In this document: positions 1,704 to 24,765 of the stretch, piece by piece
How the letters are laid out: the number at the start of each line of letters is the position of its first letter
Position numbering within the stretch: the stretch's first letter is position 1
IMG/VR virus record: IMGVR_UViG_3300046171_000040
Span: 1-37,703 of that record
Strand: one strand, 5' to 3'
DNA length: 37,703 nucleotides
From: a virus
Position numbers and translations under genes: made by a program
The notes under the pieces: generated by a model
Told to the model about the DNA's origin: nothing
Seen by the model: only the letters and a program-made list of their open reading frames with translations
Database searches by the model: none

Positions 1704-3292
1704 AATGTACCGCCGTCAATACTCGTAGCAAAAGAGAGTGTATCGGAACTCGCCGTATAGGCTAAGAACCCATCGTTAGAACCACCACCATCAAGTGCAG
1801 ACAAAGTATTAGCGGAGTTGGCAACAAGCACAGAACCCTTTGCGATTGAAGTTAAACCAGTACCACCAGAACCTACACCAATCGTACTACCGTTCCAAGT
1901 ACCTGTCGTGATTGTACCTAAAGTAGTGATTGATGTCTGACCAACATAAGTTGATGCAATTGTAAGTGCGTTTGCAGATACCGTAATCTTATCTGCTGTT
2001 CCTACAACATCAATTGTGTTACCAGTTTTAGTTAAACCAGCACCAGCAGAAATCTGTCCAGCACCAGAGAATTGTTCAAAGGTAATGTTGGTTGTACCAA
2101 GTGTTGGTGTTCCGTTTGTAGTTAGAACAAAACCATTGTCTGCGTTTGCAGTACCTTCTTCAACGAAAGTAAATGCACCACCTGTTAATTCAGAGGCCGC
2201 ATCTGCGTCTGGTGTTCTGGTAAGAACGAATGCAGCAGAACCAGAACCTACGGTTGTTACCTTATAGAAACCGTTCTGTGTTTGTGTTGTTTGGTCTTTA
2301 ACAAGGACTCTATCACTAACATCAAGTGAAACACCGTCAACTGAGATTGCACCATTTGAACCAGCAGTAATTGTTCCGTTACCATTATTGTATGTACCAG
2401 AAAGGTTTGCTGTAGTTGCAACTCTTACAGATGCTTTAACATCAAGTCCGTTTGCAACTGCGTCAACATATGATTTGTTTACAAGAGAGTCATCACCAAA
2501 ACCACTTCTTGATTCGTAACCAGAAGGAACTGTTACTGTGCCTGTTCCATTTGGCGACATAATCAAGTTGCCGTTTGAGTTGGTTGTAGAAATTGTATTT
2601 GCATCAATTTGAACATTGTCAATTTTTGCAATTGTTACTGGTGTTGAATTACCAACCGTACCACCTTCAATTGCTGGTGCAGTCAGTGTCTTGTTTGTAA
2701 GTGTCTGTGTACCAGCAAGTGTTGTAACGGTGTTATCAATTGCATATGTAATTTCATTGTTCGATACAGTTGTATCAATACCAGTTCCACCAGTGAATGT
2801 AAGTGTCTCACTAGTGTTGAACGTATCGTTTGAACCACTATCGGCTGCAAGTGTAAATGCAGTCGAAATTGCACCAAACGATAATGCACCAGAACCGTTT
2901 GTTTTTAGAAACTCATTTGCATTTCCGTCTGCACTTGGTAAAGTAAATGCAACATTGGCGGCCAATGCATTCGGAGATTTAAGTTGAACATGGTGTGTAC
3001 CGTTGTTAGTACCTTCTTTTAATTCAATCGAACCACCAGTTGATGCGTTATTTCCTACAATTAAATCGTCTACTGCTTTGTTTGCGTCAACGATAATTGC
3101 AGAACTTGCTGTTAGTGTTCCTGCTGTGTGGTCAATCTTGTCATTAAAAGCCTTACCACCGATAAGTCTAACTGTAGAACCATCACCAATGTAAAGTTTA
3201 TTATCACCTTGGGTATAGGCTAATTCACCATCGGCAAGTGCGCCAGGAGCGGATGAACCAGTAGACCTTTTAATTTGTAATTGTACTGCCAT
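1700..3292 (-). CDS. Tail fibre-type structural protein
   Basis: A 530-residue, Gly/Thr/Ser/Asn-rich protein typical of phage fibres. Residues 1-50 match the adaptor of the downstream 478-residue protein (KRSTGSSAPGALADGELAY, KLYIGDGS). The middle holds TLAGTQTLTNKTLTAPAIEG, NGNLIMSPNGTGTVTVPSGY and a GLDVKASVRVATTANL / DRVLVKDQT...NGFYKV unit that is common in tail fibres. The C-terminal part has TTGTWNGSTI and GSGGTGLTSI, also frequent in fibre shafts. No enzymatic motif is seen. It probably forms a trimeric fibre or fibre-attachment protein. The start is the ATG at 3292 behind an AGGAAGAGAAAAA ribosome-binding region. Confidence 0.7.
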   Translation of the reverse strand: MAVQLQIKRSTGSSAPGALADGELAYTQGDNKLYIGDGSTVRLIGGKAFNDKIDHTAGTLTASSAIIVDANKAVDDLIVGNNASTGGSIELKEGTNNGTHHVQLKSPNALAANVAFTLPSADGNANEFLKTNGSGALSFGAISTAFTLAADSGSNDTFNTSETLTFTGGTGIDTTVSNNEITYAIDNTVTTLAGTQTLTNKTLTAPAIEGGTVGNSTPVTIAKIDNVQIDANTISTTNSNGNLIMSPNGTGTVTVPSGYESRSGFGDDSLVNKSYVDAVANGLDVKASVRVATTANLSGTYNNGNGTITAGSNGAISVDGVSLDVSDRVLVKDQTTQTQNGFYKVTTVGSGSAAFVLTRTPDADAASELTGGAFTFVEEGTANADNGFVLTTNGTPTLGTTNITFEQFSGAGQISAGAGLTKTGNTIDVVGTADKITVSANALTIASTYVGQTSITTLGTITTGTWNGSTIGVGSGGTGLTSIAKGSVLVANSANTLSALDGGGSNDGFLAYTASSDTLSFATSIDGGTF

Positions 3293-4463: not shown

Positions 4464-4988
4464 TTATCCTAAAAATTTTACCATAAAACCATTGTGACTA
4501 TTACTACCGCCATACATATCTGCACTTGCACTTGTATCTTGAAGGTAAATAGAAAGGGTGTCATTAACTGCACAATTAACTAAACCAAATGCACTAACCA
4601 GACTTTCATCATTACTATTTGCATTATTAGAGTAAGCAGTTGTTGCTGGGCCGCTGCCCCATACATGAGAGCCATTCTTTTGAAGCATTGTTCTTAAATA
4701 TCCATTAAATCTATGTAAGTAATTCCAGTGTACTTCATAATAACCAGCTCTTGGACAAGTAAATGTACCGTTACTATTATTATAAGCATTAACTGTATCA
4801 ATCATTTCTACATTCCAATTAATTGTTCCTGCTGAGGATAGGCTGGCATCAGTTTTTCTTGCCCAAACTAAAATGGGAGTGGTAACAGATGGTGGAACAG
4901 TCTGTGTAACTGCACCAGTACTATTTGCAATTGTTAAAGCAGAAGTTCCATCAGCGGCTTTAATGTTTGATACATTTAAAGTACTCAT
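4464..4988 (-). CDS. C1q-like fibre tip protein with MSTL adaptor
   Basis: A 174-residue protein. Residues 1-30 are the adaptor (MSTLNVSNI, ADGTSALTI). Residues 40-174 are a C1q-like jelly-roll (WARKTDA, NSNGTFTCPRAGYYEVHWNY, LQKNG, VNDTLSIYLQD, FMVKFLG). The YNNSNGTFT.P.AGYY signature is characteristic of bacterial and phage C1q-like domains, which form trimers and often bind surface ligands. It overlaps the gene at 4985 by ATGA and is followed 4 nt later by a second C1q-type gene, so these are alternative or co-assembled tips. Confidence 0.65.
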   Translation of the reverse strand: MSTLNVSNIKAADGTSALTIANSTGAVTQTVPPSVTTPILVWARKTDASLSSAGTINWNVEMIDTVNAYNNSNGTFTCPRAGYYEVHWNYLHRFNGYLRTMLQKNGSHVWGSGPATTAYSNNANSNDESLVSAFGLVNCAVNDTLSIYLQDTSASADMYGGSNSHNGFMVKFLG

Positions 4989-5467
4989 TGTGCAATCTCC
5001 AAAAGTGTAATTCCGTTTCTCGCACTATCATGTCCGATAATTGCTGTTCCAGTATTTGTTCTAACATATACTGTGTATGTGATTGCACTAGTAGTCGCTG
5101 GAGAATCTAAATGAGTAAATGTGCATTGAATTGAAACTGCACCAGCACTATTAAATGTCTGTCCAAAATTGTCACTAGTGTTACCTTGTGTGCCTCCCAA
5201 ATTTGTGCTACCTCTATACAAAGTAAATCTAGGTTGACCAGAAGTGCTTGAATTGTATATAGAACCAAGATTAACAATAGCAAGAATTTTACTTGTTGCA
5301 AATTTTGGTGTGATTGTTTTTGTTATACCAGTAGATGAAAAAGAGGTTGTAGTGATACTGTTAGAACCTACCCTTTGAAAATCTTCTACTTGAATAACAT
5401 GGCCTGGAATTTTAACTACAGTTGATGCAGTTTGTCCTTGAATAGTGTCTACTGATAATGTACTCAT
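4985..5467 (-). CDS. Putative fibre tip protein with MSTL adaptor
   Basis: A 160-residue protein. Its N-terminus (MSTLSVDTIQG, then VVKIPGHVIQV) is the same adaptor as in the two genes downstream. The C-terminal domain is of a different type: ITPKFATSKILAIVNLG, FTLYRGSTNLG, then LDSPATTSAITYTVYV, ending GITLLEIAQ. The same domain forms the C-terminus of the 288-residue protein at 7553 (LDSPSTTSAITYSL...ITAMEIAG). It recurs in marine phage fibre proteins and is taken as a receptor-binding or structural beta domain. It overlaps the upstream gene by ATGA. Specific ligand unknown. Confidence 0.6.
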   Translation of the reverse strand: MSTLSVDTIQGQTASTVVKIPGHVIQVEDFQRVGSNSITTTSFSSTGITKTITPKFATSKILAIVNLGSIYNSSTSGQPRFTLYRGSTNLGGTQGNTSDNFGQTFNSAGAVSIQCTFTHLDSPATTSAITYTVYVRTNTGTAIIGHDSARNGITLLEIAQ

Positions 5468-5887: not shown

Positions 5888-5894
5888 TATTTAG
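5888..5894 (-). promoter_or_regulatory. Late promoter CTAAATA overlapping a stop codon
   Basis: CTAAATA 19 nt before the ATG at 5868. Its TAA is the stop codon of the small gene at 5891-6064. Confidence 0.7.
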
Positions 5895-6064
5895 TCTGCA
5901 TCTTTGATTGTCAAAGTGCCTTCTTCAACTTGTTTTAGAATCTCTGCATAATGTCGGTTGGTAGGGTCGAGAGGCACATCCATTGTAACATCGTCTACAA
6001 TAATTCTTACTCCGGCCCGTGTGTCATTAATATCGTTAAAATATTTTGCGCTTGTAATGTTCAT
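5891..6064 (-). CDS. Small fibre-partner protein, HYxEI family
   Basis: A 57-residue protein; I chose the ATG at 6064, 2 nt after the fibre gene's stop. An open frame extends to 6142, but only through the fibre gene. Features: MNITSAKYFN, IIVDDVTMDVPLD, NRHYAEILKQVEEGTLTI. Three paralogues in this window (8442, 11998, 23344) share the VDGVxMDVP and N.HYxEI..QVE.GELTI blocks, and each directly follows a GRRNL-type fibre gene. That constant linkage suggests a fibre-specific chaperone or capping protein, by analogy with T4 gp38 or Tfa, but the function is inferred. The sequence resembles N-terminal halves of tail-assembly-chaperone proteins. Confidence 0.7.
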   Translation of the reverse strand: MNITSAKYFNDINDTRAGVRIIVDDVTMDVPLDPTNRHYAEILKQVEEGTLTIKDAD

Positions 6065-6066
6065 TT

Positions 6067-7203
6067 CTATAACTCCGCATCCGCAGTCCAGTGACCGAAT
6101 AAAGAAGCACTGGCCCAGTTGGCACCAATGCCTGTGTAACACCTAGTAGTATTTGTGCCAATTCTATCAAATGTGACACCACCAGTGCTTGTGGCACCAT
6201 TTCTCTGGTAATCCCAACTACCAGTTTGCCCTGTCGCTCGATACGCAACCATTGTCGATGCGGCTCGCTTTTCAACTTTGAAACTTGGACTAATAATAGC
6301 GTTGCCACTACCATCACCGTTTACGCTCCAGTTTTCTGTGCTGTTATAATTTGACACTCCTGGCGTAGCTCCATAGTCAAAAGATTTTTCATAATAGCGT
6401 TTACAAATCGCAAGCTCTTCTACAAATGAGCGGTGTTCAAAATCTGAAGCACTTTCGCCAACTTCTAATTGACATCCAGTAATATACGCAGTTCCACCAG
6501 TTGCTTGAAAATTAAAAGTTGCATCACTATGTTTCTGACCATAATTATTCAGTCTAAACCATGCATCTTGAGTTGCCGCTGCGGCTTGATTACTTCCAAA
6601 AAACCAATATATTTGAATTGCACTTGCTGTAACAGTTGTTCTCCAACCATCAGTGGTATTGGCAGGAATTAAGTGTGTTTTCTTTTCCCAAGTATCTGCC
6701 TGATTAATAGTAAACTTTGTATAGTAGTTACCATCTGAAGCACCGCTGACACTACTACTATCGTTTAATCTAAGTTGAAGAGTTCCAGTTCCAGCAACAG
6801 AAGATTTTATCCAATAAGAAAGTGTTGCTGGTTTCGCAGCAGCAGTTCCCCAACCCAAAGGATTTGCATTAAATGTTTCAATCTGTTGTTGAAATAATGC
6901 TATGCAATCGCTTCCAGATGGTGTTACACCACTTGAACTAACCACAGCCTTCAAACTATTTACAAATGTCTCACTAGCAGGAACATCTGTAACTTGAGAA
7001 AAAGTAGTAGATAGTGTACCACTACCTTGGTCTTGGTCACCCAAATATGACCACCTATCAACAGTATGATATTGGTTACTTCCATGACCTAATGCACTTG
7101 ATGTTGTGCCTCTCTGGGCCACTTGCATAGCGCCATTGATGACAAGATTCCTACGACCACTTACGTTATCTGTTCCTCTTACTTTTACTTTAATTAAACT
7201 CAT
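6067..7203 (-). CDS. Tail fibre protein, GRRNL family (copy 1)
   Basis: A 378-residue protein starting at the ATG at 7203, which overlaps the stop of the upstream gene (TAATG). The frame's further extension to 7221 lacks justification. Domains: short N-terminal adaptor; GRRNLVINGAMQVAQRG at about 16-32; a carbohydrate-binding-like beta-sandwich at 40-240 (DRWSYLGD, YWIKSSVAGTGTLQLRL, TWEKKTHLIP). Then comes a conserved block GCQLEVGESASDFEHRSFVE with EELAICKRYYEKSF, and finally a variable C-terminus ending WTADAEL. Three paralogues lie at 8659, 12186 and 23530. Conserved body plus variable end suggests a host-binding fibre tip. Confidence 0.72.
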   Translation of the reverse strand: MSLIKVKVRGTDNVSGRRNLVINGAMQVAQRGTTSSALGHGSNQYHTVDRWSYLGDQDQGSGTLSTTFSQVTDVPASETFVNSLKAVVSSSGVTPSGSDCIALFQQQIETFNANPLGWGTAAAKPATLSYWIKSSVAGTGTLQLRLNDSSSVSGASDGNYYTKFTINQADTWEKKTHLIPANTTDGWRTTVTASAIQIYWFFGSNQAAAATQDAWFRLNNYGQKHSDATFNFQATGGTAYITGCQLEVGESASDFEHRSFVEELAICKRYYEKSFDYGATPGVSNYNSTENWSVNGDGSGNAIISPSFKVEKRAASTMVAYRATGQTGSWDYQRNGATSTGGVTFDRIGTNTTRCYTGIGANWASASLFGHWTADAEL

Positions 7204-7556
7204 TATGGTTTCTCCGGCCATGTAACATCATCAAGTGATGTTGCACTATTGGTGATATCTCTAAGTGCTTGTCTGTATGTTTTCCAATCAGCGAAGTTGG
7301 ATACCGAACCACCTTCTTCTCTTTCTTTGATGACAACCCAATCTGTTTCTGCGAGTTTAGCGTTTCTTTCTTCTCTTAGATTCTCTAAATCTTTTGCAGT
7401 TTGAAGTTCTGCAGCCTTAGTATTAACGGCAGAGTTATCAAACTCTACAACATTATCATTGGTATCATATGCAACGAATGTTTCTCCATTTTGAATAACA
7501 TAGTAAACATTAGAATCTAATGCTTTAATTGCTTCATGTTTCATTCTTATACTCAT
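7203..7556 (-). CDS. Phage tail assembly chaperone-like protein (copy 1)
   Basis: A 117-residue protein. The C-terminal half has the pattern of the Phage_tail_APC family (PF16778): REERNAKLAETDWVVIKE, then DWKTYRQALRDITNSATSLD and VTWPEKP. The N-terminal half (NVYYVIQNGETFVAYDTNDN) differs from its paralogue at 9810, but the last 28 residues are nearly identical, and so is the DNA. It overlaps both neighbours (ATGA with 7553, TAATG with 6067), so it is translationally coupled to the fibre gene it precedes. Likely role: folding or attachment of that fibre. Despite the family name, a minor structural role is possible. Confidence 0.7.
   Translation of the reverse strand: MSIRMKHEAIKALDSNVYYVIQNGETFVAYDTNDNVVEFDNSAVNTKAAELQTAKDLENLREERNAKLAETDWVVIKEREEGGSVSNFADWKTYRQALRDITNSATSLDDVTWPEKP
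7234..7289. repeat. 56-bp direct repeat, copy 1
   Basis: Identical base for base to 9844-9899. It encodes the C-terminal WKTYRQALRDITNSATSL part of the tail-assembly-chaperone paralogue. Confidence 0.9.
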
Positions 7557-8419
7557 CCGGCAATCTCCATAGCAGTTATAATACTTGGATACATTTCATC
7601 ATCAGCGCCAGTTATAGAATTATGCGTTCTACCAAGATACATTTGAGCAGTACTATAATTATTAAAGTACCGTAGACTATATGTAATAGCAGAAGTAGTA
7701 GAAGGACTATCTAGAAAATGATGATTTATCTGTTGCACTTCATATGCTGAATGACTTCTTTGAGCCATAGAAAAACTTGCCCTTTGAGCATTACTTGATG
7801 CGTCACCGATACCTACAGCGGTGCTATCTCTCATCAATTGAATACTGGTATTTCCTATAGGTGCATGACCCAGTTCAAGTTTAACCATAATAAAAATCTT
7901 ACTAGTAGATGCTGATGGAGTAATAGAAACATTAACAGAAGGTATTGTGTGATATTGTCCAGTAGCGGTTGGAAGAGAAATTGCACTAGTAACAACTGTC
8001 TCTTTAAACTGTATTACAGACCCTGTTGGCATTCTTGCACCAGCAACTGTTCCAGTTAATTTAGATGCGGCCATATCAGCAATCTTTGCATCTGTCACTG
8101 CACTTGGAGCAAGACTTGCAGTACTCACCGTTCCGTCAGTTGGTGTACCGACATTAAGAACGTCACCCAATGCAATGATAAAGTCGATTGAATCTGACGA
8201 GGTTAATGCACTTGAGAATGTAATCTGTGAACCAGAAATTGTAAATGAAGAACCAGGCTTCTGAATAACACCATTGAGTGAAACCAATAATTGATTTGCA
8301 GTAGCAGGTGAAAACGCACCACTGTTCAACTGCAAGTTATAGGTTGCAGTGGCAGAGGCCGTAATCGCATCAAGTACATGATATGCACCTGTGATTGGTT
8401 CTTGTCCTATGAACGGCAT
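7553..8419 (-). CDS. Fibre adaptor/tip protein, MPFIG family (copy 1)
   Basis: A 288-residue protein. Residues 1-95 (MPFIGQEPITGAYHVLDAI, LLVSLNGVIQKPGSSFTISG, ITFSSAL, DFIIALGDVL) form the common phage LNGV.Q.P..sYt.sG beta domain. A linker with AVTDAKI-type repeats (APSAVTDAKIADMAASKLTG) follows. The C-terminal 160 residues are the same SPSTTSAITY...MEIAG domain seen at 4985. A late promoter stands 19 nt upstream and the gene overlaps 7203 by ATGA, so it opens a four-gene cassette (adaptor, chaperone-like, fibre, small partner). It is paralogous to 10184, mainly in the first 150 residues. Confidence 0.7.
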   Translation of the reverse strand: MPFIGQEPITGAYHVLDAITASATATYNLQLNSGAFSPATANQLLVSLNGVIQKPGSSFTISGSQITFSSALTSSDSIDFIIALGDVLNVGTPTDGTVSTASLAPSAVTDAKIADMAASKLTGTVAGARMPTGSVIQFKETVVTSAISLPTATGQYHTIPSVNVSITPSASTSKIFIMVKLELGHAPIGNTSIQLMRDSTAVGIGDASSNAQRASFSMAQRSHSAYEVQQINHHFLDSPSTTSAITYSLRYFNNYSTAQMYLGRTHNSITGADDEMYPSIITAMEIAG

Positions 8420-8438
8420 TATCTAATTTCCTTTTTCA

Positions 8439-8445
8439 TATTTAG
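8439..8445 (-). promoter_or_regulatory. Late promoter CTAAATA overlapping a stop codon
   Basis: CTAAATA 19 nt before the ATG at 8419. Its TAA is the stop codon of the gene at 8442-8657. Confidence 0.7.
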
Positions 8446-8657
8446 TCTGTACTATATGGTTCAACAGAAATTTCAAAAGAATCTGTTTTATCATTGTGAC
8501 GAGAAATAACCTCTGCATAGTGCATATTATCTAAGTCAATAGGTATGTGAGAAGGAACACCGTCAATAATACCAAGAATACCATTTATATTGTCTGTATT
8601 TTTAAGAACTGTTCCATCATCATCTTGATTATATGTATAATATGCTTTTTCAATCAT
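8442..8657 (-). CDS. Small fibre-partner protein, HYxEI family (divergent copy)
   Basis: A 71-residue protein using the ATG at 8657, just 1 nt after the fibre gene's stop; the frame extending to 8711 lies inside that gene. Sequence landmarks are MIEKAYYTYNQDDDG, an acidic insert, then GIIDGVPSHIPIDLDNMHYA with EVISRH. The DG..x.IPID..N.HYAE core matches the other three members, but the QVExGELTI tail is replaced by a different acidic end (FEISVEPYSTD). It follows the second GRRNL fibre. If the family is a fibre chaperone, this divergent tail may track the different fibre C-terminus. Confidence 0.68.
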   Translation of the reverse strand: MIEKAYYTYNQDDDGTVLKNTDNINGILGIIDGVPSHIPIDLDNMHYAEVISRHNDKTDSFEISVEPYSTD

Positions 8658-8658
8658 T

Positions 8659-9786
8659 TTATATCTCCGCTTCTGCTGTATAATGATATCCAAGACCCTC
8701 ATCATTACCACCAGATACTACTAATCCACCAAATCCAGTTGTTCCTCTATGTTGAATACTATTCACACCTTGGTTAGCTGAATGATTAGTTCCAGTGGTA
8801 ATATCTGAAAGATTGTCAGCAGTTCCATTAAGAGAATAAATTGTAACAGTAGGTGTTGACCTCATTCTAGTTACAAACCGTGTTCCAGCATCCATTCTAT
8901 TAGATATATTAACTCCGTCAGTAGTATTTCTGGCAAAAACTGCACCAGCAGTACCATTGTGGCCAGGGGCATTGGTCATATTATAAGATTTTTGATAATA
9001 TCGTTCACAAGACGCAAGCTCTTCTGCTAATGAACGGTGCTCAAATTCTGTCGATACACTGCCAACTTCTAACTGCCAACCAGTAAGATAAATTTCATTA
9101 TTTGTACTATCTGCAAAATTTACTCCAGCACTAGAATAACGAACAGTATTATTACCAGTTTGCCATGTTGAGGTATTATGTGTTCCACTAGAATAATCAG
9201 ACCCTGCTGTTAAATATAAAGTCGCATAAAGTCCATCAGAAGCACCATTTACAATATTTTGTGCAGTATTGCCTGGCACAGTAATTATTTTCTTTTCCCA
9301 TGTATTAGTAGCATCAATTGTAAATGTCGCACCTCTATTATAATAAGTACCACCAGAATTTTTGTGTTGAAATTCTACAGTGACTTGGCCAGTTTTTACA
9401 GATTTAATCCAAAATGAAAAAGTTAATGATTCTGCACTAGATGTTCCCCACTTTAAATGTTGTACATTTTGTCCTTCAATTCTTTGTTGAAATATAAGAT
9501 AAGAAGCAGCAGCAACAGAAGTATCAGCCGAGGTGCAATTTAATTTATAACTATTTCTAAATCCTTCTTCCTCTGGCGATTCTGTAGATTGAGATAATTC
9601 CCATGTACCTAAATCATTAACTTGAAATCTAAACCTATCACAAGTGGAATAGGCATTAAAACTGGTTATACTACCTACTGTAGTTGCTCTCTGGGCTATT
9701 CTCATATCACCGTTGATGATAAGATTCCTACGACCAAGATTTGGTGTAACCTGTCCTTCAATTCCTTGTATTTTACTTAATGGCAT
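8659..9786 (-). CDS. Tail fibre protein, GRRNL family (copy 2)
   Basis: A 375-residue paralogue of 6067, 12186 and 23530. It starts MPLSKIQGIEGQVTPNLGRR, then NLIINGDMRIAQRA, CDRFRF, FSFWIKSVKTGQVTVEFQHK and NTWEKKIITVPGNT. The conserved GWQLEVGSVSTEFEHRSLAE and CERYYQKSY block ends the common body. The last ~110 residues (NAPGHNGTAG onward) are unlike the other copies until the terminal HYTAEAEI. This is the conserved-body, variable-tip arrangement of a receptor-binding fibre. A late promoter is 20 nt upstream, inside the end of the chaperone-like gene, giving this fibre its own transcript. Confidence 0.72.
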   Translation of the reverse strand: MPLSKIQGIEGQVTPNLGRRNLIINGDMRIAQRATTVGSITSFNAYSTCDRFRFQVNDLGTWELSQSTESPEEEGFRNSYKLNCTSADTSVAAASYLIFQQRIEGQNVQHLKWGTSSAESLTFSFWIKSVKTGQVTVEFQHKNSGGTYYNRGATFTIDATNTWEKKIITVPGNTAQNIVNGASDGLYATLYLTAGSDYSSGTHNTSTWQTGNNTVRYSSAGVNFADSTNNEIYLTGWQLEVGSVSTEFEHRSLAEELASCERYYQKSYNMTNAPGHNGTAGAVFARNTTDGVNISNRMDAGTRFVTRMRSTPTVTIYSLNGTADNLSDITTGTNHSANQGVNSIQHRGTTGFGGLVVSGGNDEGLGYHYTAEAEI

Positions 9787-9806
9787 CTGCGTTTCCTATT
9801 TCTCTA

Positions 9807-9814
9807 TATTTATT
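9807..9814 (-). promoter_or_regulatory. Late promoter AATAAATA overlapping a stop codon
   Basis: AATAAATA 20 nt upstream of the ATG at 9786. Its first TAA is the stop codon of the gene at 9810-10187. Confidence 0.68.
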
Positions 9815-10187
9815 CTGGTTTCGTAGGCCATGTTACATCATCCAGTGATGTTGCACTATTGGTGATATCTCTAAGTGCTTGTCTGTATGTTTTCCAATCT
9901 GCATCATTTGAAAGAGTAACATCTCTACTCTGTGTCCAATCTGATTGTTGTAATAACAAATCTCTTTCAATACGAACTTCATTGATAGGTTCGGCATCTT
10001 CTAATTCTTTTTTCTTTTTAATTATTTGTGACCATGTAACACCAAAATCAGTTGTCTTAGATGACCATCCACCAGAACCATCTGCTTTTCTAAACATTGA
10101 TTTGAATTCAGATTCATTCGCTGGTTCACCACGAAGTTCCCACTCAGAAATACCTAGAGCCACAATTGCGTCAGAAACATAAATCAT
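9810..10187 (-). CDS. Phage tail assembly chaperone-like protein (copy 2)
   Basis: A 125-residue protein. The N-terminal half (MIYVSDAIVALGISEWELRG, ADGSGGWSSKTTDFGVTWSQ) is unlike copy 1. The C-terminal half (ERDLLLQQSDWTQSRDVTLS, then DWKTYRQALRDITNSATSLD) fits the Phage_tail_APC family, and its coding DNA includes 56 bases identical to copy 1. The basic/acidic stretch KKKKELEDAE suggests a short coiled coil. It overlaps the adaptor gene at 10184 by ATGA and precedes the copy 2 fibre. Expected to act in assembly of that fibre. Confidence 0.7.
   Translation of the reverse strand: MIYVSDAIVALGISEWELRGEPANESEFKSMFRKADGSGGWSSKTTDFGVTWSQIIKKKKELEDAEPINEVRIERDLLLQQSDWTQSRDVTLSNDADWKTYRQALRDITNSATSLDDVTWPTKPE
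9844..9899. repeat. 56-bp direct repeat, copy 2
   Basis: Identical to 7234-7289, in the same orientation and the same codon frame. Confidence 0.9.
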
Positions 10188-11011
10188 ACTTTTATCTCCA
10201 TAATTATAAGTTTGTGATGAGTACCATTTCCTATTCTGAATGTTCCACTAACTTGATTAATTATTGCAATACCATAATATCTTTGTCCAGACATTGAATT
10301 GTGTGTTGCATCAGCCAACTGTGAGAAGACTTGGATATTTCCAGTATGAGATTCTGCTTCATAGTTCTCACCTCTACCATATTCACTACAAATTCTTACA
10401 AATTCTTGAGAATATTGATTTGCAGTAGAACCATAATAAACTCTGGCAAAACCACGACCAGTAGCAATATCACATTCTCCAAGTTGTGCATAAATTAAAA
10501 TTTTATTACTATCAGATATGGGTGTAAATGTAGTTTCGCAGAGTTCCGTATATGAACTTGTAGAACTATTGGTATGAAGACTACTATCAGTTACAACAAC
10601 AGTTTGAACAACTGAACCAGCAGGAACTTGTGCAGCTGGTAATGTTCCAGTTGTAACTTTAGATGCAGAAACACCAGAGGCAATCTTTGCATCTGTCACT
10701 GCACTTGCTTGAATCTTTGCAGTAGAGATAGTATCATTGGCAGGCACAACAGAACTCTCATGCGTACCAGCAATGTGAAGAACATAGAAGTTCAATCCAC
10801 TTGCGGGCGCTTCTGACATAGTAAGTGTTGTACCAGAAACCGTATAGGCATCAGTCGGCTCTTGTCTTACGTTACCCAAGAACACCGCAATATCATTTGC
10901 GTTTGCAACTTGTTTTGATAACGTGAATGCAGTTGTAGAACCGTTTGGTGTTAAATCATCTTTGACGATTGATGCAAAACCAGCGGTTGGTGATTTACCT
11001 ATAAAGGGCAT
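10184..11011 (-). CDS. Fibre adaptor/tip protein, MPFIG family (copy 2)
   Basis: A 275-residue protein. The ATG at 11011 gives MPFIGKSPTAGF and matches the start of copy 1; the TTG one codon earlier is not needed. Residues 1-90 contain the FTLSKQVANANDIAVFLGNV / RQEPTDAYTVSGTTLTMSEA beta domain, then AVTDAKIASGVSASKV repeats. The C-terminal domain is only distantly related to copy 1 (FTPISDSNKILIYAQLGECD, ...LIIMEIKV). It opens the upstream copy of the four-gene cassette. Likely links a fibre to the baseplate or acts as a tip. Confidence 0.68.
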   Translation of the reverse strand: MPFIGKSPTAGFASIVKDDLTPNGSTTAFTLSKQVANANDIAVFLGNVRQEPTDAYTVSGTTLTMSEAPASGLNFYVLHIAGTHESSVVPANDTISTAKIQASAVTDAKIASGVSASKVTTGTLPAAQVPAGSVVQTVVVTDSSLHTNSSTSSYTELCETTFTPISDSNKILIYAQLGECDIATGRGFARVYYGSTANQYSQEFVRICSEYGRGENYEAESHTGNIQVFSQLADATHNSMSGQRYYGIAIINQVSGTFRIGNGTHHKLIIMEIKV

Positions 11012-11361: not shown

Positions 11362-11976
11362 CTATCCTAAAGCGATTGCTAATGCAGTTGCATCATCTGC
11401 TGGGTCAAAACTCAATTTAACTTGAGTAATTGCTCCATCTGCAACAGTATTTAGTGTGTTCTGTTGTGATAACTGTATTACTTGAATGTTATTTGTTCCA
11501 GTGGGTGGAGCAGAAGTAAATGTCAAAGTACTACCCACTAACCTGTGTATGCATAACTTGAACCATACCTCTGATAAACATTATCGACAAACACCATGAA
11601 GTTTGCAGCGTTCGCTGCGGCAGGTGTCTGTGTTAATGTAAATTGCGGTTTAACTGTTATCACCATTAAATTCATCAATGTGTGGTGACGCCTGTGCAAG
11701 TGCGGCAGATAATAATTGTCTACCCATATATACAATAAAAATTCTTGCACCGTTTGATGGTACGTCTGCGAAGTTAATCTTTGGACTACCAGATGCCATT
11801 TGAATCGAGAATGCATATTCTGGTTCTTGAACAATACCATCAAGAGACACCAACAACTGACCAGCCTGACCAACAGGGTAGTCGAGGTCAAAAGTTGAGT
11901 TAGTGCCGTCACCAGTAATTAACTGTTTTTCAAATGCACCGTATGATGGGTCTAATCCAATATATGATTCTGACAT
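11362..11976 (-). CDS. Fibre adaptor protein with two Q.P-type beta domains, frameshifted
   Basis: The ATG at 11976 opens MSESYIGLDPSYGAFEKQLI with LLVSLDGIVQEPEYAFSIQM, which stops near 11650. The chain goes on in a second frame (FTLTQTPAAANAANFMVFVD, VYQRYGSSYAYT) and then a third (GSTLTFTSAPPTGTNNIQVI ... ATALAIALG, stop 11362-11364). Removing one base at each of three short runs (AGTTAAA, CAGGTT, GTGGGTA) restores DNSKPQFTLT and YAYTVSGSTLTF, matching family consensus. The restored protein has about 204 residues in two domains. A late promoter lies 18 nt upstream. Three homopolymer insertions in 150 nt point to sequence error or recent decay. Confidence 0.65.
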
Positions 11977-11979
11977 TTC

Positions 11980-12012
11980 TTTTTCCTATAATGTTATTTA
12001 TTCTGCATCTGC
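11980..12012. repeat. 33-bp direct repeat, copy 1
   Basis: Identical to 23326-23358. It spans the end of a small HYxEI gene, its stop-codon late promoter and the ribosome-binding region of the next gene. Confidence 0.88.
11995..12002 (-). promoter_or_regulatory. Late promoter AATAAATA overlapping a stop codon
   Basis: AATAAATA 18 nt before the ATG at 11976. Its first TAA is the stop of the small gene at 11998-12183. Confidence 0.7.
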
Positions 12013-12183
12013 AATTGTTAATTCGCCTGCTTCAACTTGGCGCATGATTTCGTCATAGTGAGTATTGCCCACATAAATTGGAACATCCATTGTGACTCCA
12101 TCTACTACAATTTTGATGGTGTCATTTTGGTTCGTCATTGGGTTCACAACATATTTAGCAGACGTAATGTTTATCTCGTTCAT
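11998..12183 (-). CDS. Small fibre-partner protein, HYxEI family
   Basis: A 61-residue protein: MNEINITSAKYVVNPMTNQN, TIKIVVDGVTMDVPIYVGNT, HYDEIMRQVEAGELTIADAE. It is the closest relative of the 57- and 58-residue members at 5891 and 23344. It begins 2 nt after the stop of the 406-residue fibre, so expression is coupled to it. The length fits a compact alpha/beta fold. I infer a chaperone or cap for the preceding fibre's variable end. It could equally be a minor virion subunit. Confidence 0.72.
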   Translation of the reverse strand: MNEINITSAKYVVNPMTNQNDTIKIVVDGVTMDVPIYVGNTHYDEIMRQVEAGELTIADAE

Positions 12184-12185
12184 GT

Positions 12186-13406
12186 CTATAACTCCGCAGA
12201 TGCCGTAAAGATTGCATAATGGTCTTCGTCATTTGAATTACTAACATTCCCTGTAGGATGAAGATTGAAGCCTCTGTCTCCAATATTTACTGCGCTGCCG
12301 TCATAACTTGCAAAAGAACCTCCAGTAATCTTTCCAGAAGTGCCACCATAGTGATACAAAACTATGGTAGGCTCTGACCGCATTGTCACAGGGTACTGTC
12401 CTGCACTCCAGAATGGTCTATTTGAAGTAGAAGTTCCTCCAGAAACAGACGCAGCACCTTTCAAATTATTTACGCTGCCCGATGCGCCGGGTGCTATATC
12501 GTAGTTGTAGCTTTTGCAGAAATACCGCTGACACAGAGTCAGTTCCTCGCCAAAGCTGCGGTGTTCAAAATCTGTGGCAGCATCGCCAAGTTCCCACTGA
12601 ACCCCAGTTACATAAAAGTTGTTACTTGTGTTATCCAAAGCGTTGACCTGACCAACAACACGGTTTGCTGATGTGGCAGAAGCCCAAGTCGTGTTTAATG
12701 TTCCGCTAGTAAAATTAGAACCAGCCGCCAACCACCACTGTAAAATTAAAGAACGTGCATTGTCGTTATCCATTGCGCCGCTTGTGTCGGCTGGAAACGT
12801 AACAGTTTTGTATTCCCAAGTATCAGCAGATGAAACAGTGTATGATTTACTTACTTGTCTAGTGTTGTCTGTATCATACAACTCAACTATGTAAGTGCCT
12901 GTCTTAGTGGTTTTAACCCAAAACTGCACAGTCACTTGTTCTGCGTTTGATGTGCCTTTTTTAATACTCTGTAGGTTTTGTCCTTCAAATGCTTGTCTAA
13001 AAATGTAACCATCGCCAGCACCCATAGCGGCATCGGCTGTAGTTACATCTAGTTTAAAACTTTTTGCAAACCCCTGGCCAGTAGGTACATCTGTTGATTG
13101 CTGTAAATTATATGCGGCACTGCCGCCAGTAGTAGCTACATCCCATCTATCCAAAGAATATCTGTTGCCAGAAGAAACAGATTGATTGCCTCTTTGATGA
13201 ACTTGCATGGCGCCGTTGATGATAAGATTCCTACGTCCAAGATTTAATGCCTTTGCAGAGGTTACTGCGTTATCGGCAACCTTTGCGGTTGTCACTGCAC
13301 CAGCAGCAATTTTTGCAGTTGTTACTGCACCATCCTCAAGGTCACCAACTTTAACTGTAGTGTCTGTGTTAAGAAGTTCTGCGAGATTTTTTGCGTTAGT
13401 TGCCAT
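12186..13406 (-). CDS. Tail fibre protein, GRRNL family (copy 3)
   Basis: A 406-residue protein. The N-terminal 55 residues hold DGAVTTAKIAAGAVTTAKVA and DNAVTSAKALNL repeats, almost the same as in copy 4. Then GRRNLIINGAMQVHQRGNQ, LDRWDVAT, VQFWVKTTKTGTYIVELYDT, TWEYKTVTFPADTSG, and the conserved GVQWELGDAATDFEHRSFGE / LCQRYFCKSY block. A variable ~120-residue C-terminus ends in FTASAEL. The ATG at 13406 overlaps the upstream stop (TAATG). Probable host-binding fibre; ligand unknown. Confidence 0.72.
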   Translation of the reverse strand: MATNAKNLAELLNTDTTVKVGDLEDGAVTTAKIAAGAVTTAKVADNAVTSAKALNLGRRNLIINGAMQVHQRGNQSVSSGNRYSLDRWDVATTGGSAAYNLQQSTDVPTGQGFAKSFKLDVTTADAAMGAGDGYIFRQAFEGQNLQSIKKGTSNAEQVTVQFWVKTTKTGTYIVELYDTDNTRQVSKSYTVSSADTWEYKTVTFPADTSGAMDNDNARSLILQWWLAAGSNFTSGTLNTTWASATSANRVVGQVNALDNTSNNFYVTGVQWELGDAATDFEHRSFGEELTLCQRYFCKSYNYDIAPGASGSVNNLKGAASVSGGTSTSNRPFWSAGQYPVTMRSEPTIVLYHYGGTSGKITGGSFASYDGSAVNIGDRGFNLHPTGNVSNSNDEDHYAIFTASAEL

Positions 13407-23325: not shown

Positions 23326-23358
23326 TTTTTCCTATAATGTTATTTATTCTGCATCTGC
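23326..23358. repeat. 33-bp direct repeat, copy 2
   Basis: Identical to 11980-12012. Here it precedes the gp8-like gene rather than a fibre adaptor gene. Confidence 0.88.
23341..23348 (-). promoter_or_regulatory. Late promoter AATAAATA overlapping a stop codon
   Basis: AATAAATA 18 nt before the ATG at 23322. Its first TAA is the stop of the small gene at 23344-23520. Confidence 0.7.
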
Positions 23359-23520
23359 TGGCGCAATGGTTAATTCGCCCGATTCTACTTGACGCATGAT
23401 TTCGATATAATGTCTATTGCCTTGGTCAATCGGTACATGACAAACTTCTCCATCTATTGTAACCTCAATACCACAGTTTTCACCAAGATGTTGTTCATAT
23501 TTTGCGTTTTCAATTACCAT
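23344..23520 (-). CDS. Small fibre-partner protein, HYxEI family
   Basis: A 58-residue gene: MVIENAKYEQHLGENCGIEV, TIDGEVCHVPIDQGNRHYIE, IMRQVESGELTIAPADAE. It starts at the ATG at 23520, 9 nt after the stop of the 411-residue fibre. The last 20 residues are close to those of the member at 11998 (EIMRQVEAGELTIADAE). Two cysteines distinguish it from the others. As at the other three loci it lies between a GRRNL fibre and a late promoter built on its stop codon. Fibre-partner role inferred from that linkage. Confidence 0.72.
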   Translation of the reverse strand: MVIENAKYEQHLGENCGIEVTIDGEVCHVPIDQGNRHYIEIMRQVESGELTIAPADAE

Positions 23521-23529
23521 AATACTCTC

Positions 23530-24765
23530 CTAGATTTCTGCATCTGCTCTGAAGTGATACAATAATGCTCTTTCCGATACCCCACTACCAGATGTGTTTC
23601 TAGGCAAGAAAGAAGTTGTACCGTTTTGAATAACTCCAACAGCACCAGAATCACCACCTGTATCGCCATGTGCAATTTGATTTGCTGTTCCAGCATACGA
23701 GTAAACTGTAACAGTAGCCGCCGCCCGTTTTTCTACTCTATAGTGTCCAGTATAATACCCATAGTTGCTTGGTGTTTCTCTGCCAACATATCGGTGGTCA
23801 GCACCTATTCCACCATTTGCACTGCCAGCTGCAGTTCCGTATGGATAGGTATGTTCATAATAGCGTTGACAAAGCAATAGTTCTTCCCCAAATGAGCGGT
23901 GCTCGAAATCTGTTGCCGAACTGCCTTGTTCAATTTGGACACCAGTAATATGAAAATTGTTTGCAGTATTATCTGCATGATTTACTTGACCAACTGCTTC
24001 ATCGCCAGTTGCATAGTTTTGCCATGTACTTTGCAATGAACCACTAGTTCTGTTTGAACCAGCAGACAAGTACCATGTAAATTGCCTTCCTCTTGTATTA
24101 TCATTGTTGATTGCATCATGAGTGTTGCCAGGAATAGTAATACTCTTATGTTCCCATGTATTACTTGCATTAATAGTGTAAGAAAATGCAACTTGTTTTC
24201 CACCTTCATCTTGAAAAACATTTACAATATTTGTACCAGTTTTGGTTGCTTTAACCCAGAAAGATATAGTTACTGGTGCCGGACTTGAAGTTCCAGTTCT
24301 TAATCTTTGTAAATCATGACCCTCAATACGGTATTGCAATTGTATATATGAACCGGCACTAAGTGAACCATTTGCAGTTGTGCAATCCATCTTTAATGCT
24401 TTAGTGTGTCCATGTTGCACAAATGGTGGGTCTGTAACTGCTAATGTTTCTTGAGTTTGTGTCCATGTTCCAGAAGTATCTATTGCAAGTCTCCACCTAT
24501 CACAAGTATGATATGACCCACCAGAAGATATACTAGAAACCGAAGTTGCTCTCTGGGCCACTTGCATACCGCCGTTGATAGCAAGATTCCTACGACCAAG
24601 GTTTAGTGCCTTTGCAGAAGTTACAGCATTATCAGCAATCTTTGCAGTTGTCACCGAACCATCTGGAATTGCAGTGATATCGGCATCAACCGCACCAGCA
24701 GGAATCTTTGCAGCAGTTACAGCATCATTTGCGATTGCGTTTGTACCAATAGTATCAATTGCCAT
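23530..24765 (-). CDS. Tail fibre protein, GRRNL family (copy 4)
   Basis: A 411-residue protein. Residues 1-55 carry NDAVTAAKIPAGAV, DGSVTTAKIADNAVTSAKAL repeats nearly identical to copy 3. Then GRRNLAINGGMQVAQRATS, CDRWRLAID, VTISFWVKATKTGTNIVNVF, TWEHKSITIPGNTHD and GVQIEQGSSATDFEHRSFGE / LCQRYYEHTY. The C-terminal ~110 residues differ from all other copies and end YHFRADAEI. Unlike copies 1-3 it sits inside the baseplate gene block, before gp8. Probable receptor-binding fibre. Confidence 0.72.
   Translation of the reverse strand: MAIDTIGTNAIANDAVTAAKIPAGAVDADITAIPDGSVTTAKIADNAVTSAKALNLGRRNLAINGGMQVAQRATSVSSISSGGSYHTCDRWRLAIDTSGTWTQTQETLAVTDPPFVQHGHTKALKMDCTTANGSLSAGSYIQLQYRIEGHDLQRLRTGTSSPAPVTISFWVKATKTGTNIVNVFQDEGGKQVAFSYTINASNTWEHKSITIPGNTHDAINNDNTRGRQFTWYLSAGSNRTSGSLQSTWQNYATGDEAVGQVNHADNTANNFHITGVQIEQGSSATDFEHRSFGEELLLCQRYYEHTYPYGTAAGSANGGIGADHRYVGRETPSNYGYYTGHYRVEKRAAATVTVYSYAGTANQIAHGDTGGDSGAVGVIQNGTTSFLPRNTSGSGVSERALLYHFRADAEI

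Follow-up and report, generated by a model that had tools for sequence, protein, structure and literature searches.

The window analyzed here (37,703 bp; IMG/VR virus record IMGVR_UViG_3300046171_000040) is a genome fragment of a T4-like marine myovirus, from its tail/baseplate region, and carries two adjacent four-gene adhesin cassettes on its minus strand: cassette 1 at 11011–8442 (2,570 bp) and cassette 2 at 8419–5891 (2,529 bp). We judge it likely, at a probability of roughly 0.8, that these cassettes form a two-position adhesin array whose modules are swapped by homologous recombination in shared sequence boxes, both between related phages and between the two positions. The boxes, the boundaries of the exchanged blocks, the swaps of position and the within-genome similarity are all observed in the sequences compared. 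In each cassette an MPFIG adaptor is followed by a tail-assembly chaperone (TAC, PF16778), a GRRNL fiber and a small HYxEI protein, and the initial annotation was right to describe a four-gene order repeated in blocks of about 2.5 kb. Its block limits need correction: at 10184 and 7553 the blocks begin where the adaptors stop (3' ends), which leaves these genes just outside.

Fixed positions and the boxes they share

Both positions are widely conserved. Among the relatives of the window, which are mostly metagenome contigs (labelled L###), the adaptors follow the order A1 then A2 in 62 of 64 two-adaptor contigs, mostly at a spacing of 1.2–2.9 kb, and the isolate Melnitz carries both in that order. 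In the window, A1 (10184–11011; phrog_18673, tail fiber) and A2 (7553–8419; PHROG tail-fiber match) each join a position-specific N-terminus, about 100 aa in A1, to an exchangeable C-terminal tip. A tree of adaptor N-termini resolves two clades with a single change of position label, also when cut to 100 nt. The fiber after TAC1 starts with M.LSKIQ or a near variant and that after TAC2 with M.LIK or a near variant; exceptions are few, one being the swapped array of L127 described below. The two contigs that break the adaptor order, L075 (A2 then A1) and L227 (two A2 adaptors), represent either a rearranged array or a different phage group. Smaller pelagiphages and cyanophages (HTVC010P, HTVC019P, P-SSP2) also carry MPFIG-type N-termini, suggesting that the anchor domain crosses phage groups. 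The C-terminal tip of A2 has a relative in a small gene of its own at 4985–5467 (MSTLSVDTIQ...), consistent with the same tip fold being carried on different N-termini.

Between the cassettes there are four exact matches of at least 15 bp, of which three are in register and one is an off-register 15-mer. The first in-register box, R1 (28 bp; 10680–10707 in A1, 8079–8106 in A2), lies in the SAVTDAKIA stretch of the adaptor; R2 (56 bp; 9844–9899 in TAC1, 7234–7289 in TAC2) codes for the TAC core DWKTYRQALRDITNSATSL; and R3 (16 bp; 9721–9736 and 7144–7159) is the GRRNL motif of fibers 1 and 2. To these can be added a similar, inexact FEHRS box at 8985–9050 in fiber 1, which is 85% identical to 6381–6446 in fiber 2. 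The 56 identical bases singled out by the initial annotation are exact, and no match to them arose in 100 shuffles with up to three mismatches allowed. Elsewhere the cassettes are unlike, as the initial annotation had noted for the TAC N-halves and fiber tips: global identity, as a fraction of length, is 0.42 for the adaptor tips (shuffled maximum 0.42), 0.37 for the TAC N-halves (shuffled 0.38) and 0.37 for the fiber tips (shuffled 0.41). The R1–R2 interval, comprising adaptor tip and TAC N-half, scores close to shuffled sequence. The segment from the TAC C-end to the fiber start reaches 0.66 (shuffled 0.46). Relatives in which both cassettes were fixed and had diverged to an equal degree along their whole length had been proposed as evidence against recent exchange; the cassettes are indeed fixed, but their divergence is strongly mosaic.

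The repeated gene order and the exact 56-bp repeat might be taken as signs of a recent tandem duplication of the whole cassette, with fast divergence of the tips and the 56 bp as leftover identity. Such an origin is very unlikely: many phages, Melnitz among them, keep the two positions in one order, and the adaptor N-termini, which form two clean clades, share 49% DNA identity in the window, little above its variable parts, against 100% for R2. A recent duplication was set aside on the fixed A1–A2 order and the separate adaptor clades; the clades, and the cassette duplication with them, appear to be old. The initial proposal of duplication followed by tip exchange therefore survives in its second half, which close relatives, isolates and blocks at the other position all support; a recent duplication is not supported.

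Module replacement between phages and between positions

Close relatives reveal what is exchanged. Backbone identity to the window is 96–97% in L011/L057, L013 and L014, and 88% in L016. In L011/L057 and in L013/L072/L016 the anchors, TAC C-ends and adaptor starts are kept, mostly at ~93–97% (only 84–85% for the cassette-2 TAC end of L013/L072), and the intervening modules are unrelated. Fiber starts and the HYxEI–adaptor junction are also kept in these contigs. The edges of the replaced blocks recur at 10680/10647 (L013 and L072 both break at 10680, at R1 in A1), 8125/8097/8052/8027 (around R1 in A2), 9967/7380/7348, 9708/9683/7190 (the first two near R3 of fiber 1) and 8449/5911. In L011, for example, the replacement is limited to the middle of fiber 1, from the GRRNL motif to 9124, where a backbone-level match resumes just before the FEHRS motif. 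A GRRNL fiber outside the cassettes offers a further case: in L013 and L016 the position-0 fiber joins the position-0 N-terminus to the body of the window's position-3 fiber (23530–24765; phmmer 812 versus 343 bits). The window's own position-0 fiber lies at 12186–13406, and the L013 match to it ends at 13201.

Cultured phages present the same picture. Melnitz (BATS) and Melnitz-3 (Western English Channel) are 99.86–100% identical on either side of the array and retain adaptor 2 and TAC2 (98.6%), and the cassette-1 tip, chaperone and fiber, together with the fiber after TAC2, are unrelated. For the tail region, the original description mentions only that nine genes of one variant differ in length, and it found that the four Melnitz phages did not differ in host range on three OM43 strains (PMC9004378); the variant it calls Melnitz-4 is taken to be the record named Melnitz-3. 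Metagenome contigs are prone to chimeras, for which repeats are the classic places, and two co-occurring strains could have been joined there during assembly. As a source of the whole pattern, such an artifact is hardly credible, given its presence in these isolates and in independent samples (L013/L072/L014/L016; L011/L057; L197/L220).

The exchanged blocks run from the adaptor tip into the following TAC and include its N-half, so the chaperone travels with its upstream tip. HYxEI genes follow 127 of 142 GRRNL fibers, and a GRRNL fiber precedes 127 of 130 HYxEI genes. In the window the pair occurs four times, all on the minus strand: within cassette 1 (8659–9786 and 8442–8657), within cassette 2 (6067–7203 and 5891–6064), and outside the cassettes at positions 0 (12186–13406 and 11998–12183) and 3 (23530–24765 and 23344–23520). 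The exchanged units are two two-gene modules, tip plus TAC and GRRNL fiber plus HYxEI, rather than the single four-gene cassette first envisaged, and the partner genes are probably chaperones specific to their module. In the Melnitz and Melnitz-3 arrays, glycine-rich tips are followed in one place each by a phrog_7759 protein of unknown function (L010 14397–14780, L217 13274–13621), which may be the cognate chaperone of such tips.

Modules also change position. In three independent cases, a nearly identical tip-plus-chaperone block occupies A1 in one phage but A2 in another: L115 A1 and L127 A2 (99.2% over 943 nt), L133 A1 and the A2 of L197 and L220, which come from different samples (97.8% over 935 nt), and Melnitz A1 and L090 A2 (94.6% over 1358 nt). 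Between L133 and L197, identity climbs from chance at R1 (565–595) and drops at the TAC stop (1482); between L115 and L127 it climbs at R1 (2205–2235) and drops at ~3130–3150, the TAC end. The fiber starts of L127 are swapped as well. Together with the relatives and isolates, these blocks support the earlier suggestion that the identical stretch marks a crossover boundary.

A subtler trace of traffic between positions is the resemblance of the two TACs of one genome. Across the 66-nt TAC cores of 13 genomes, within-genome identity is 0.848 versus 0.759 when permuted (p=1e-4; third positions p=4e-4). As kinship inflates this test, it was rerun on seven clades with near-relatives collapsed, where the observed value was reached by 19 of all 5040 pairings at all sites and by 13 at third positions. 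A tree of TAC C-ends (~90–100 nt) requires 8 changes of position label, against a shuffled mean of 13.9. One silent change is telling: both window copies read CTT and both L011 copies TTA, and neighboring position-specific differences persist. Conservation of the TAC C-terminus by protein function alone, through a common partner and with no recombination between cassettes, would fit the C-terminal residues that are invariant across the family (R61, R64, D72, W73, Y94, R95, L98, R99, D100, W113, P114, P117). It is improbable as a full account, and was set aside, because silent sites agree within genomes and differ between them and because tip-plus-TAC blocks turn up at the other position. A search of the literature, partial in its coverage, on concerted evolution and gene conversion in tail fibers returned no description of this pattern. 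Separately, the TAC1 C-end of L061 is closer to the window's TAC2 than to its TAC1, and the TAC2 slot of that contig (4304–4540) holds a short divergent 78-aa frame (MANYKNITM...).

Several points weigh against the proposed exchange. Cross-position cases are few beside 64 same-position pairs, making position swaps a small minority; two of the 13 genomes, L026 and L151, lack within-genome TAC similarity; and the TAC core is short (66–90 nt), which makes the tests weak. Part of the TAC sharing could stem from import of whole modules instead of gene conversion, and L127 and L090, as single assemblies among relatives that are mostly metagenome contigs, may be chimeras.

A proposed mechanism of exchange

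Under the proposed scheme, two docking positions would be fixed, each set by a conserved adaptor N-terminus, of the A1 or the A2 type, together with a short fiber start (MPLSKIQ in the window's fiber 1, MSLIKVK in fiber 2). The interchangeable remainder would move as pairs: each adaptor tip would take along the N-half of the chaperone encoded just after it, and each GRRNL fiber body its HYxEI partner. Ordinary homologous recombination would operate in the adaptor at R1, in the TAC C-terminus at R2, in the fiber at R3 and FEHRS, and at the HYxEI–adaptor junction. It would involve like positions of related phages that infect the same cell and, more rarely, the two different positions. Exchange between positions would keep the TAC C-termini of one genome alike, giving rise to the 56-bp identity, which is best read as a homology box that encodes a conserved protein end and that recombination between cassettes keeps alike. 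T4-type phages encode the UvsX recombinase. We infer phage machinery of the RecA/UvsX type, specificity of each chaperone for its upstream tip, and a benefit in varied binding of surface glycans; Melnitz, for its part, encodes recA (PMC9004378).

Short identical elements repeated around variable segments also recall site-specific recombination of the shufflon or invertase type, here at the 56-bp element. That mechanism is extremely improbable, and was set aside, because the boxes are direct repeats and vary between lineages. No long, highly complementary inverted pair surrounds the variable segments, an inverted-repeat scan having returned only weak 14–30 nt pairs (70–93% complementary) that do not correspond to the boxes. 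Unlike a recombinase core site, the exact 56-mer has no match in IMG/VR outside the window's own genome, which rules it out as a universal site. No recombinase stood out in the window's list of open reading frames, where the other frames went without a family-library scan and the record is a fragment. The many silent sites at which the box differs between lineages favor ordinary homologous recombination over a site-specific enzyme.

More speculatively, the boxes may be actively maintained as homology ports in a dedicated plug-in array with address-like N-termini that set the docking site of each fiber; through these ports, tips and chaperones would be traded at a high rate between co-infecting phages and between positions. 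We consider this rather doubtful. If true, it would give a phage of the streamlined ocean a shared, shuffled variety of receptor binding without a recombinase or retroelement.

Both fibers match phrog_4492, and an AlphaFold2 (AF2) model of fiber 1 searched with Foldseek matched CBM4/16/22 and the phage tailspike 5w6h (E 8e-6 to 1e-4; query-normalised TM 0.23–0.31). The body is predicted to be a carbohydrate-binding-module-like beta-sandwich, which makes glycan binding likely. TAC1 (9810–10187) overlaps its adaptor by 4 bp, and TAC2 (7203–7556) was modeled at an AF2 pLDDT of 92.6. A fold search of the PDB with the TAC gave no significant match, and one of a viral library matched other predicted tail-assembly chaperones. 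At 11362–11976 (minus strand), next to the array, the window has frames of 108 and 58 aa where L011 and L013 each have a single intact frame of 203 aa. An in-frame stop and slight differences in length cause the break, which reflects either real decay or an assembly error.

As read from sequence, the array may be a natural route by which ocean viruses change what they stick to. Such changes are poorly known in phages of the most abundant ocean bacteria, the methylotrophs and SAR11. Near-identical cultured phages with exchanged adhesin modules exist, so mechanism, rate and effect on attachment are directly testable. An annotation rule is also suggested: a tip gene should be matched to the chaperone that directly follows it, a GRRNL fiber to HYxEI, and the fiber start predicts the docking position.

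Comparison with known adhesin exchange systems

The similarity of gp6 and the synteny of the array place the window among T4-like marine phages of the Melnitz/HTVC008M type. Among isolates, its gp6 baseplate protein is closest to that of Melnitz (57% aa), followed by the pelagiphages Mosig (52%) and HTVC008M (51%). Melnitz-like methylophages (MZ577095–MZ577098) have the same A1–A2 array, with adaptor N-termini at 69–75% aa, although module replacement at defined boundaries is not described in the paper that reports them (PMC9004378). The branched tailspike complex of Ackermannviridae likewise mounts several receptor-binding proteins on conserved N-terminal anchors, and within-genome recombination between tsp4 and tsp5 has been shown there by experiment (PMC11414711). 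In the parts of that source consulted, however, the anchors are XD/TD tailspike domains, and neither a chaperone gene as exchange boundary nor a natural two-position array with address-like fiber starts is described (PMC11414711).

Among tail-fiber assembly chaperones, both TACs belong to PF16778 Phage_tail_APC, whose C-terminal domain scores 65.8 bits in TAC1 and 55.6 in TAC2 against a gathering score of 26.6, and they share the variable N-half and conserved C-end of its members. The Caudo_TAP/Tfa model (PF02413) matched only below its cut-off (15.7 and 16.1 versus 22.1 bits). The Pfam and PHROG matches of the exchanged genes, to PF16778 and other tail-fiber families, name no homologue of gp37 or gp38.

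T-even phages are known to exchange adhesins in modular fashion, and a 1998 study reportedly found there variable adhesin parts flanked by conserved motifs and modules swapped by homologous recombination. The window shares with T-even distal fibers the T4-like phage type, the variable adhesin parts between conserved motifs, and homologous recombination, and here too adhesin modules are replaced between near-identical phages at conserved motifs. Unlike the T-even system, it has two tandem anchored positions that also exchange modules with each other, and its boxes lie within an adaptor and a PF16778 chaperone. The two-anchor adhesin array is a new variant of this modular exchange.

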